IMG/VR virus record: IMGVR_UViG_3300010430_000454
Location: 1-23,770 of that record
Length of the DNA stretch: 23,770 nucleotides
Strand: one strand, 5' to 3'
DNA from: a virus
Part shown: one piece after another, positions 10,490 to 13,374 of the stretch
Position numbering within the stretch: the stretch's first letter is position 1
Layout of the letters: every line of letters starts with the position of its first letter
Notes under the pieces: model-generated
What the model saw: the letters and a program-made list of their open reading frames with translations, nothing else
Told to the model about the DNA's origin: nothing
The model's database searches: none
Translations under genes and position numbers: made by a program

Positions 10490-11848
10490 ATGAATTCTTA
10501 CGATCAACTAATCGAGAAGTGGTCTCCCGTCCTGAACGAAAGTTCTGCAGGCGAGATTAAAGATCACCAACGTAAAGCAGTAACCGCTGCTATTCTCGAA
10601 AACCAAGAACGTGCTATGGCCGAAGAGCAAGCACAACACGAAGGTTTTGGTGGACTGACTGAAGCTGCCCCAGGCAACAACACGACTTCTGCTGCAAACT
10701 GGAACCCTGTACTCATCTCACTAGTAAGACGTGCAATGCCTAACCTTATGGCATATGACGTGTGTGGTGTACAACCTATGTCTGGCCCAACTGGTCTCAT
10801 CTTTGCGATGAAGGCACGTTACGGTGCAGGATCAACTTCAAGCCGTGAGGCATTGTTTAACGAAGCAGAGACTCAGTTCTCTGGTGATCGTACTGGTACT
10901 CATGACTCAGACAATGCGTCTGGTTTCAACGGTATCTCTGACGATTCTTCTAACGCTGCTCCAGTACGTACTACTGACTCAAGTGTTGACGATTCACGTC
11001 TAACTGCACTTGCTGCCGGTGGAATGACTACTGCAACTGCAGAAGCATTGGGTGACGGTGTTGGTGCTCCTTTCGCAGAAATGGGTTTCACCATCGAAAA
11101 AGCAACCGTGACTGCACAGTCTCGTGCGCTGAAAGCCGAGTACAGTTTGGAACTCGCACAAGACCTTAAAGCGATTCATGGTCTTGACGCAGAAACCGAA
11201 CTTGCGAATATCCTTTCAACTGAGATCCTTGCGGAAATCAACCGTGAAGTTATTCGTACAATCAACTCTCAAGCTAAGACTGGTGCGTTACAAGCTAACG
11301 TTACTACGAAAGGTATTTTTGACCTTTCTTCTGACGCTGACGGACGTTGGTCTGCAGAGAAGTTCAAGGGTCTTGTAGTACAGATTGACCGTGAATGTAA
11401 CGTAATTGCAAAAGAAACTCGTAGAGGAAAGGGTAACGTAGTTATCTGTTCTTCAGACGTTGCTACTGCACTTGCTGCTTCCGGTATGTTGGACTACACT
11501 CCTGCAATGTCTACTAACCTTCAGGTTGATGACACTGGTAACACCTTTGCAGGTACTTTGAACGGACGTGTACGTGTTTACATCGATCCATATGCTTCTA
11601 CTGACTACATCACTGTAGGTTACAAGGGAACTAACGCATATGACGCAGGTGTATTCTACTGCCCATACGTACCTCTCCAAATGGTTAAAGCCGTTGGTGA
11701 AGATACGTTCCAGCCAAAAATCGGGTTTAAGACTCGTTACGGAATGGCTTCAAACCCATTTGTTGGTGCAACTCCTAGTTCCGGTCTTGCCGCTGCTAAG
11801 AGCAACCAGTACTACCGTATCTTCCGAGTAGACAACATCTTAACGTAA
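10490..11848 (+). CDS. 23: Major capsid protein gp23 homologue
   Basis: 452 aa (T4 gp23 is 521, marine relatives are shorter). HK97-fold shell protein. The N-terminal propeptide (WSPVLNESSAGEIKDHQRKA) ends at a likely gp21 site L56-T57-E58 before AAPG. Then come the hallmark blocks NWNPVLISLVRRAMPNLMAYD, GVQPMSGPTGLIFAMKARYG, AEYSLELAQDLKAIHGLDAE, NREVIRTINSQAKTGA and the C-terminal FKTRYGMASNPF. Excellent Shine-Dalgarno AAGGAAAA. A strong terminator follows 40 bases after the stop. No gp24 vertex paralogue is present in the window. Arg is mostly encoded by CGT, in line with the phage tRNA-Arg(ACG) at the window end. Confidence 0.97.
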   Translation: MNSYDQLIEKWSPVLNESSAGEIKDHQRKAVTAAILENQERAMAEEQAQHEGFGGLTEAAPGNNTTSAANWNPVLISLVRRAMPNLMAYDVCGVQPMSGPTGLIFAMKARYGAGSTSSREALFNEAETQFSGDRTGTHDSDNASGFNGISDDSSNAAPVRTTDSSVDDSRLTALAAGGMTTATAEALGDGVGAPFAEMGFTIEKATVTAQSRALKAEYSLELAQDLKAIHGLDAETELANILSTEILAEINREVIRTINSQAKTGALQANVTTKGIFDLSSDADGRWSAEKFKGLVVQIDRECNVIAKETRRGKGNVVICSSDVATALAASGMLDYTPAMSTNLQVDDTGNTFAGTLNGRVRVYIDPYASTDYITVGYKGTNAYDAGVFYCPYVPLQMVKAVGEDTFQPKIGFKTRYGMASNPFVGATPSSGLAAAKSNQYYRIFRVDNILT

Positions 11849-11888
11849 GTTGAGATAAGAAATAGAATCTCGTTCAGGGATCTTTTCG

Positions 11889-11916
11889 GGGGAGTCGCAA
11901 GACTCCCCTTTTTTTT
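11889..11916 (+). terminator. Strong rho-independent terminator after gp23
   Basis: Perfect 8-bp GC-rich stem GGGGAGTC / GACTCCCC closed by a GCAA (GNRA) tetraloop and followed by eight T. It ends the head-gene transcript. The remaining bases to 11985 show no clear promoter; TATATAG at 11920 is only a poor late-box match. Confidence 0.95.
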
Positions 11917-11985
11917 GCCTATATAGAAGAGACATGGTAGTCAATAAACGAATGGAAGCGCACACCTCAACACGAGGACTATGAC

Positions 11986-12429
11986 ATGAGAGCAGTTCTG
12001 TTCTTACTACTGGTTCCGTTTTTGGCTCAAGCAGAAACGGTAATTAACTATGACGATGGGTCTACGTATACTCTCAAAGAAAATCAAGAGATCTATATCA
12101 GTACACCAAATAGTTCTTTGTTCAAACGTCAATTGATGAATAACAAAGATACATTTTTCCGTGTACAAAAACCTTGGACTAAAAGAGACTATGTACCACA
12201 ACCACAGGATCCGTATCAAATCGGTTCTGTTGCGTGGTGTGAATCATATGTCCCTTGGAGTGAAGGGTTAACTTTCGATATGATCTCTTGGCAACGTGCA
12301 TGTGATACCAACAATGATGGTAAATATGTATTCTGTGATGACTATACACCCACTTCTGAAAGTTTGGGATTTGGATATTCACAACCAACAGATGATGATG
12401 ATCGGTATGATGAAGAGTGTGGAGACTAA
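11986..12429 (+). CDS. Exported acidic protein with a calcium-loop-like motif, unknown function
   Basis: 147 aa. Residues 1-16 (MRAVLFLLLVPFLAQA) are a textbook signal peptide with an AQA cleavage site, so the protein should reach the periplasm or outside. The mature part has four Cys (85, 106, 117, 145). An EF-hand/dockerin-like loop D107-x-N-x-D111-G112 with D118 at position 12 sits between Cys106 and Cys117; the tail is Asp-rich. I recognise no family. It lies alone between the gp23 terminator and another terminator, with AGGA upstream of the ATG. Calcium binding and disulfides are inferences. It could act in lysis, superinfection exclusion or as a virion decoration. Confidence 0.78.
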   Translation: MRAVLFLLLVPFLAQAETVINYDDGSTYTLKENQEIYISTPNSSLFKRQLMNNKDTFFRVQKPWTKRDYVPQPQDPYQIGSVAWCESYVPWSEGLTFDMISWQRACDTNNDGKYVFCDDYTPTSESLGFGYSQPTDDDDRYDEECGD

Positions 12430-12432
12430 AAT

Positions 12433-12459
12433 AGGGGGGTAACACCCCCTTTCTTTTTG
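12433..12459 (+). terminator. Rho-independent terminator after the exported protein
   Basis: GGGGGT (12435-12440) pairs with ACCCCC (12444-12449) around an AAC loop, extended by weaker A/T and G-T pairs, then TTTCTTTTT. It abuts the late promoter box at 12460 with no spacer. Confidence 0.85.
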
Positions 12460-12467
12460 TATAAATA
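12460..12467 (+). promoter_or_regulatory. T4-type late promoter box TATAAATA immediately before the HExxH gene
   Basis: Perfect TATAAATA ending six bases before the ATG at 12473. With T4 late spacing (box about -13 to -6) the predicted transcript start falls on or next to that ATG. No terminator is visible between here and 16877, so UvsY and UvsW could be read from it. Confidence 0.8.
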
Positions 12468-12472
12468 GTAGT

Positions 12473-12883
12473 ATGAAAAAGATAAACGACATACTATCAC
12501 TCGCAAATCCTTACATTGGAATACTCTTTATTGCAATGGGGTTGATCTATGGATGTTCTGAGAGACAATCCGATGAAGCACCGGACGGATACTACTTCGA
12601 ACAACCAGAATACGTCAAGACAGAACTGGAAGTAAAAATGGTCTTGTTTAAAGAGAAGTCAGAGTTTCGCAAAGTTGCGATGGAAAAAGGAGCATGGAAT
12701 GACGGTACTGTACAAGCGTTTGGGACTATCAATCCAGACGGTAACTCTTGCACCATATACACATATGATGCTACCGTGAAGTATCAACCACACTATTGGG
12801 GTCATGAACTTGCACACTGCGTTTATGGAAGGTGGCACCAAGAACAGAACGCAAAGAGAGCACAACAGGCAAGGTTCGACTAA
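12473..12883 (+). CDS. Lipoprotein-like protein with HExxH metallopeptidase motif
   Basis: 136 aa. An N-terminal hydrophobic stretch (residues 13-27, PYIGILFIAMGLIYG) is followed by Cys28. IYGC is close to a lipobox but has Tyr at -2, so either a lipoprotein or a single membrane anchor. The C-terminal part holds H111-E-L-A-H115 and His122 (HELAHCVYGRWH), the zinc-binding pattern of many metallopeptidases. The spacing is one residue longer than the metzincin HExxHxxGxxH. The likely active domain faces the periplasm. No Shine-Dalgarno precedes the ATG, and a late promoter box ends six bases upstream. The stop overlaps the next ATG (TAATG). Peptidase activity and target are inferred; a cell-envelope or virion-processing role is possible. 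Confidence 0.75.
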   Translation: MKKINDILSLANPYIGILFIAMGLIYGCSERQSDEAPDGYYFEQPEYVKTELEVKMVLFKEKSEFRKVAMEKGAWNDGTVQAFGTINPDGNSCTIYTYDATVKYQPHYWGHELAHCVYGRWHQEQNAKRAQQARFD

Positions 12884-13374
12884 TGGCATTAACAACAAAT
12901 CTAAACTATCTACAACCTACTGGATTCAAGTTTGTTATCAGTAGGGATAACTATTCTAATATAGAATATTTTGCACAGTCTTTCACACATCCGGGCGCTT
13001 CAGTATCTCCGGTAGAGATTCCTACCAGACGTGTCAATCGTGTCCCTCTTGCAGGAGACAAGATCAACTACGGTGAGATGACGGTTGAAATTATCCTTGA
13101 TGAGAACATGTCTGCATACAAAGAGATGCAAGCTTGGTTGGAGAGGATTGTAAATGATGGTCACGTGGAGTACGATACTGCTACCAAGAAGGCTACTGCA
13201 TCTGACATTACTATCATGATCCTTTCTTCACATAACAACACGAATGTCAAGATTAAGTACCACGACTGCATACCCACAAACATTGGACAGATAACCCTCG
13301 CATCCAACGTGCAAGATGTTGCGTTCACCACCTTCAACACATCATTCAGGTTTAGTACATTTGAGATAATTTAG
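12883..13374 (+). CDS. Tail-tube-fold structural protein (gp19/gp54 family paralogue)
   Basis: 163 aa from the ATG in the TAATG overlap at 12883; an upstream in-frame start inside the HExxH gene is less likely. Blocks resemble gp19 of this phage: AGDKINYGEMTVEIILDEN followed by MQAWLERI aligns with AGDRTFETWTVTVINDTDF followed by MERWMNGI, and the ends share a PT[SN][IV]G turn before the last strands. Such second tube-like genes occur after gp23 in marine T4-like phages. A role as tube initiator or completion protein (like T4 gp54 or gp3) is inference; another option is a baseplate hub component. It sits well away from gp18/gp19, in a transcript with recombination genes. Confidence 0.8.
   Translation: MALTTNLNYLQPTGFKFVISRDNYSNIEYFAQSFTHPGASVSPVEIPTRRVNRVPLAGDKINYGEMTVEIILDENMSAYKEMQAWLERIVNDGHVEYDTATKKATASDITIMILSSHNNTNVKIKYHDCIPTNIGQITLASNVQDVAFTTFNTSFRFSTFEII

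Follow-up and report, generated by a model that had tools for sequence, protein, structure and literature searches.

The window, the whole stretch of 23,770 bases that makes up the analysed virus record, belongs to a T4-like phage, since the product of its major capsid gene (gp23, positions 10,490 to 11,848) matches PF07068 with an E value of 3.7e-150; the nearest record by gp23 in the phage collection is C48C1, at 67% identity. This gene and the gene of the tail tube protein (12,883 to 13,374; phrog_45, E 1.7e-32, scanned from 12,886) form the left and right borders of a cargo site. Between them lie, in order, a terminator-like stem-loop with a T run 3' of gp23 (11,888 to 11,909), the promoter-like TATATAGAAG that starts a leader (11,920 to 11,929), the gene of a predicted exported protein of 147 aa (11,986 to 12,429), the terminator-like stem-loop of that gene (12,433 to 12,451), the element TATAAATA (12,460 to 12,467) and a second cargo gene of 136 aa (12,473 to 12,883), with all of these features on the plus strand. 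The region has sixteen terminator-like sites, compared with an expectation of 5.8 from shuffles. The element TATAAATA, which we take to be the T4-type late promoter consensus, has three matches in the window against a mean of 0.91 in shuffles, all three just upstream of genes. A late promoter of this kind directly before the exported gene was considered and rejected, the element standing after the gene in the window and a like element lying upstream in one of 74 loci.

The first 16 residues of the exported protein, MRAVLFLLLVPFLAQA, are followed by ETV and have the basic start, hydrophobic core and A-x-A end that fit a Sec signal peptide, so that the mature protein would begin at E17. The protein contains four Cys, of which C106 just precedes and C117 is enclosed by an EF-hand-like loop, D107-T-N-N-D-G-K-Y-V-F-C-D118 (codons at 12,304 to 12,339, plus strand), with D107, N109, D111, G112, Y114 and D118 at the characteristic positions. 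The preliminary description had pointed to an exported, Cys-rich product lying between two terminators, with a signal peptide unusual for a T4-type morphogenesis region; the signal-peptide-like N-terminus, the four Cys, the loop and the two stems are all present, and among 28 window genes examined with a simple signal rule this gene alone passes. The Asp-rich tail that it mentioned is likewise found in the window protein (TDDDDRYDEECGD) but is not kept in most relatives. The second cargo gene encodes what we take to be a lipobox-like LIYGC and an HExxH motif (HELAH, in WGHELAHC), and thus resembles a lipoprotein zinc peptidase. Searches with this protein gave no clear family and one relative in the phage collection, located in C48C1 about 37 kb from gp23. 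Because its gene overlaps that of the tail tube in TAATG, it is probably part of the tail-tube transcript.

A protein family with a predicted export signal

In IMG/VR scans with the window protein, the family alignment and a distant member, the numbers of relatives among pattern matches were 109 of 117, 263 of 320 and 149 of 153, respectively, with the best 80 kept in each case. The 207 loci collected from IMG/VR viral contigs yielded 86 distinct complete mature sequences; one further homologue (L176), which reads ETVIS, was left out by the motif filter. The start of the mature proteins, ETVINYDDGSTYTL, varies little, and an alignment of 85 sequences has 22 invariant columns. A median dN/dS of 0.18 (230 pairs with dS between 0.1 and 1) indicates that the protein is under purifying selection. 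Four Cys are present in 67 and two in 19 of the 86 sequences, and no sequence has an odd number, which is what disulfides in an oxidising compartment would lead one to expect. The high yield of relatives among pattern matches, these even Cys numbers and the constancy of the loop positions described below show that the features noticed in the window protein are not due to chance.

To predict export, we used a rule of our own that asks for a basic start, a hydrophobic core and A-x-A; 69 of the 86 family members pass it, compared with 38 of the 1056 other ORFs in these loci that are 60 aa or longer. Families with especially frequent passes include i-spanins, o-spanins, CsgF, CsgG and the HELAH lipoprotein, an indication that the rule selects exported proteins. 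The residue at position -1 of the expected cleavage site is A, G or S in 80 of 86 members and that at -3 is acceptable in all 86; Pro precedes the site in six members, which may be cut elsewhere. Together with the even Cys numbers, these patterns favour the suggestion of an exported, Cys-rich protein, as far as sequence can.

The loop retains D at position 1 and D or N at positions 3 and 5 in all 86 sequences, and the family shows the further features of an EF-hand-like loop, namely an acidic residue at position 12, Gly at 6 and a hydrophobic or aromatic residue at 8, with the exception of one D-Y for D-G and of one sequence (L017) whose tail is replaced after D-G-K. In the latter (L017:2989-3432, on the same contig as L095), the C-terminus is swapped for ALITQQT..., which resembles the start of a neighbouring membrane protein in L154, and the sequence is either a recombinant or an assembly join. 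The calcium loops of Excalibur, EF-hand and dockerin proteins have the form D-x-D/N-x-D-G with an acidic position 12 and Cys close by, much like the family loop. The Excalibur motif reads D-x-D-x-D-G-x-x-C-E, whereas the family places Cys at loop position 10 or 11, outside that spacing, and none of 58 members matches the EF-hand or Excalibur profile. The calcium-like loop of the preliminary description therefore holds at the level of the motif and not at that of the profile; calcium binding by the protein is predicted.

No acceptable match in Pfam or PHROGs was obtained for any of the 58 members, and searches of Pfam, PHROGs and PDB sequences with single members and with the alignment returned weak matches alone (best E 0.019), none of the PDB matches being acceptable. 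A tblastn search with four members against 50,697 phage records gave no full-length match. Matches in Mycobacterium phages, part of them annotated as HNH endonuclease, were dismissed at a best E of 0.1 and a coverage of about a third of the query. In a collection of 84,980 genomes, 16 stretches fit the pattern and none is a relative. AlphaFold models of moderate confidence (mean pLDDT 67.7 and 69.2) predict two beta hairpins and two short helices ahead of the loop, with a loose tail at the end; with these models, Foldseek and VIA found nothing in the PDB. Foldseek against BFVD gave a single relative, the viral protein A0A516LJC9 (E 2.8e-7, 40% identity over 101 columns), which is very likely a family member but differs in its length of 111 aa and has no name or function attached. 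The homology and structure searches proposed at the outset thus lead to no homologue of known function, and a literature search by general terms found no paper on the family. Although many marine phage lineages carry the family, the search of cultured phages did not reveal it, and it has probably escaped annotation. We are confident that it is a real and undescribed family and that its genes are carried as morons.

The cargo site and the changing neighbourhoods of the gene

In close relatives of the window phage, the interval between gp23 and the tail-tube gene is either empty or filled with other genes. Empty sites measure 114 nt in L223 and L224 (gp23 92 and 89% identical), 140 nt in L225 and L226 and 98 nt in C48C1, and contain a terminator-like stem and TATAAATA with no cargo; the same element precedes the tail-tube gene in the empty sites of L223 to L226 and L209. 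A stem similar to that at 11,888 to 11,909 follows gp23 in relatives with and without insert. Other cargo is found in L220, L221, L222, L227 and L228. The first of these carries an antisense gene, as read (L220:2443-3429, minus strand), with a signal-like N-terminus and matches to reprolysin-type peptidases; it has relatives in the contigs of L221 and L222 and no match in the 50,697 phage records. The interval of L227 holds an HNH endonuclease with I-TevI-like and NUMOD3 parts and another reprolysin-type metallopeptidase with a signal-peptide-like start (L227:1607-2524, plus strand), also present in the contig of L228 and 43% identical to the peptidase of L220. Further antisense genes lie beside the exported protein in L192 and L084. 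These differing contents mark the interval as a hot spot for cargo, part of which is exported.

Five further loci (L083, L084, L086, L164 and L192) retain the leader that runs from TATATA to the start codon, with TATATAAAAG and TATATAATAA in place of TATATAGAAG in relatives, and in L084 it is kept although the sequence further upstream differs. As judged from sequence, the gene would therefore travel with a promoter-like element and a terminator-like stem of its own. Its absence from the same interval in close relatives, its own flanking elements and its repeated change of neighbourhood described below bear out the earlier impression of a separately acquired unit.

At 95% nucleotide identity, the 207 loci reduce to 75 non-redundant loci, which we sorted by their neighbours into seven types. 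Type A (28 loci) has an M15 endolysin, a tail-like and a glutaredoxin-like gene before the exported gene and a terminase-like gene after it; type B (8 loci) has the exported gene, an EF-hand membrane protein and a spanin pair; type C (15 loci) an Hsp20-like gene and M15 or lysozyme; type D (10 loci) a holin and an M15 endolysin; type E (3 loci) a peptidase, CsgF, CsgG and a curlin repeat; type F (6 loci, the lineage of the window) gp23; and type G (3 loci, L155 having been moved from here to C by hand) a lysozyme. Two loci are unclassed. The labels Hsp20-, NifU- and glutaredoxin-like, for neighbours in some lineages, are presumptive and based on resemblance. Several other gene families are common to B and C, and the two may thus be a single phage lineage in which the points of insertion differ. 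The gene tree, which is built on few columns and has many weak forks, requires 26 neighbourhood changes, where the least possible is 7 and shuffles average 42; strongly supported branches alone force at least three changes for F and at least four for A. Copies in the A and D types are up to 98% identical. The gene thus moves independently of the surrounding genome, as expected of a moron, and is present in one copy in 17 of 18 longer records. A contig of 101,258 bases (G016, locus L141) has two pieces of the gene, one at each contig end, which are either a second copy or the mark of an unclosed circle.

The position after the capsid gene, as first noted, is accurate for the window and peculiar to this one lineage, and it provides no evidence of a capsid role. 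The location directly after gp23 in the window might suggest a minor virion protein or a decoration protein whose gene was picked up next to that of the capsid, but the signal peptide and the unrelated neighbours in all but 6 of 75 non-redundant loci make this very improbable; a capsid-linked role was rejected on the ground that the neighbourhood is not conserved.

Lysis genes and the possible role of the protein

Profiles identify endolysins (PF08291/phrog_894; PF13539, phrog_465; PF00959), a GTA-type holin (PF11351/phrog_3427) and Rz/Rz1-type spanins (phrog_739, phrog_812) among the neighbours. Of the 75 non-redundant loci, many of which are cut short, 54 have an endolysin, holin or spanin gene no more than 3 kb away; among the 29 that extend for 3 kb in both directions, the number is 21. 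By type, such a gene is found within this distance in 23 of 28 A loci, 6 of 8 B, 13 of 15 C, 9 of 10 D and all three G, and in none of the three E, six F and two unclassed loci. The two longest T4-like records have their nearest detected lysis gene at distances of 64 kb and 12 kb. We then computed, over whole records, the chance that a gene placed at random would lie equally near, taking one value per neighbourhood type in 16 of 18 records (in the other two, four profiles detected no lysis gene). This test, built after the pattern had been seen, gives a Fisher p of 0.021 for all six neighbourhood types and, post hoc, of 0.006 without E and F. The proximity supports a link with lysis without proving it, and the lineage of the window itself is evidence to the contrary. 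Furthermore, many phages have morons clustered close to their lysis modules, so that neighbourhood alone is weak evidence.

As the relatives are mobile and adjoin lysis genes more often than elsewhere, we consider an accessory role in lysis at the envelope to be the most likely of the roles weighed here. On this view the gene, an insertion between gp23 and the tail-tube gene, would be transcribed as a small unit from its own promoter-like element to its own terminator; its relatives pass between unrelated marine phages and nearly always occur once per record. The product would be exported through a cleavable Sec signal peptide and take up its fold in the periplasm of the host, where it would have one or two disulfides and a single EF-hand-like calcium loop. 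Its place of action would be the envelope of the dying cell, where it would assist or time the lysis step at the peptidoglycan or the outer membrane. Computation establishes the family, its conservation and mobility, the cargo site and the neighbourhoods, whereas export, disulfides, calcium binding and the lysis role are inferred. This explanation as a whole, a moron encoding an envelope-acting lysis-accessory protein, is put forward tentatively, and for the role in lysis itself we would claim somewhat less than that. Since the gene moves intact between unrelated genomes and the mature N-terminus is near-invariant, a target in some conserved part of the host envelope is likely. If the lysis role is true, the protein would be a lysis part independent of endolysin type. 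A more specific version, in which a calcium- and redox-dependent periplasmic factor works with many unrelated endolysin, holin and spanin sets and is for this reason tradable, seems to us unlikely though worth stating.

Known envelope proteins of lysis offer partial parallels. The periplasmic lysis regulators of the T4 RI type would be analogous as small, exported, disulfide-containing proteins that act on lysis timing; the present family differs in its cleavable-type signal peptide and EF-hand-like loop, matched no lysis-described PHROG family at E 1 with any of the 58 members, and does not qualify as an RI-type antiholin or lysis inhibitor. Spanins of the Rz/Rz1 type (PMC6139136) are envelope proteins of the lysis module and are found near the exported gene in neighbourhood B. 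Unlike them, the family lacks a lipobox (no Cys at the cleavage site), a coiled coil and a C-terminal hydrophobic membrane segment, and no spanin PHROG is among the matches of the 58 members.

The closest competitor of the lysis-accessory role is superinfection exclusion, in which a periplasmic or outer-membrane protein blocks the adsorption or DNA entry of competing phages, and which we regard as possible but doubtful. Exclusion genes are typical morons that are traded between phages with common hosts, and the cassette anatomy, strong mobility, single copy and predicted envelope location would all fit, as would the distance of the gene from lysis genes in T4-like phages. Exclusion leaves the excess of lysis neighbours unexplained, and the position in the late region suggests expression that would come too late unless the TATATA leader is an early promoter. 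If true, it would imply a widely shared barrier between marine phages.

Neighbourhood E bears on both readings, CsgG and CsgF being neighbours of the exported gene there. According to PMC9004378, PMC7029224 and PMC9599517, the curli secretion cluster is spread between distant marine phages, with suggested roles from lysis timing to superinfection defence; PMC9004378 speculates that phage CsgGF tunes lysis, and the defence proposed in PMC9599517 would suit exclusion. Phage type VIII secretion (curli) clusters are likewise exported cargo common to distant marine phage lineages, but they consist of other proteins, are multigenic and are known from bacteria, whereas no bacterial relative of the exported family was found. 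In L180:6141-7812 and L159:7950-12174, the curli cluster lies just downstream of the exported gene, with CsgF, CsgG and curlin-repeat genes recognised by profile and a FecR-like gene by resemblance alone.

Third in our ranking, after the lysis-accessory role and exclusion, comes a link with exported zinc peptidases, whose partner, inhibitor or substrate the protein would be, protecting or tuning them in the periplasm. An HExxH lipoprotein follows the gene in four of six F loci and a reprolysin-like peptidase does so in two of three E loci, M15 zinc peptidases are nearby in A, C and D, and exported metzincin-like peptidases replace the gene at the same site in close relatives. These peptidases are of unrelated families, which argues against a single partner; none adjoins the gene in L084, L192 or the B neighbourhoods, and a wider metzincin search returned five loci with no further co-occurrence. 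We therefore regard such a link as improbable. Similarly unlikely is an auxiliary role in host physiology, such as metal or calcium handling or a function at the surface, with no part in lysis or exclusion. The loop motif, the Hsp20-, NifU- and glutaredoxin-like neighbours of some lineages and the type VIII secretion genes adjoining the gene in E would be compatible with it, yet no homologue was confirmed in the 84,980-genome collection, and there is thus no known host gene as a source.

A membrane protein with an EF-hand-like loop was also considered as a partner, members of two clusters (40 and 103) adjoining the gene, and was set aside; by charge, the loops of these two families would lie in the cytoplasm, and the association is treated as a coincidence for now. 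The small membrane proteins with EF-hand-like loops directly adjoin the exported gene in neighbourhoods B and E (L034:3412-3744 and L079:2623-2901).
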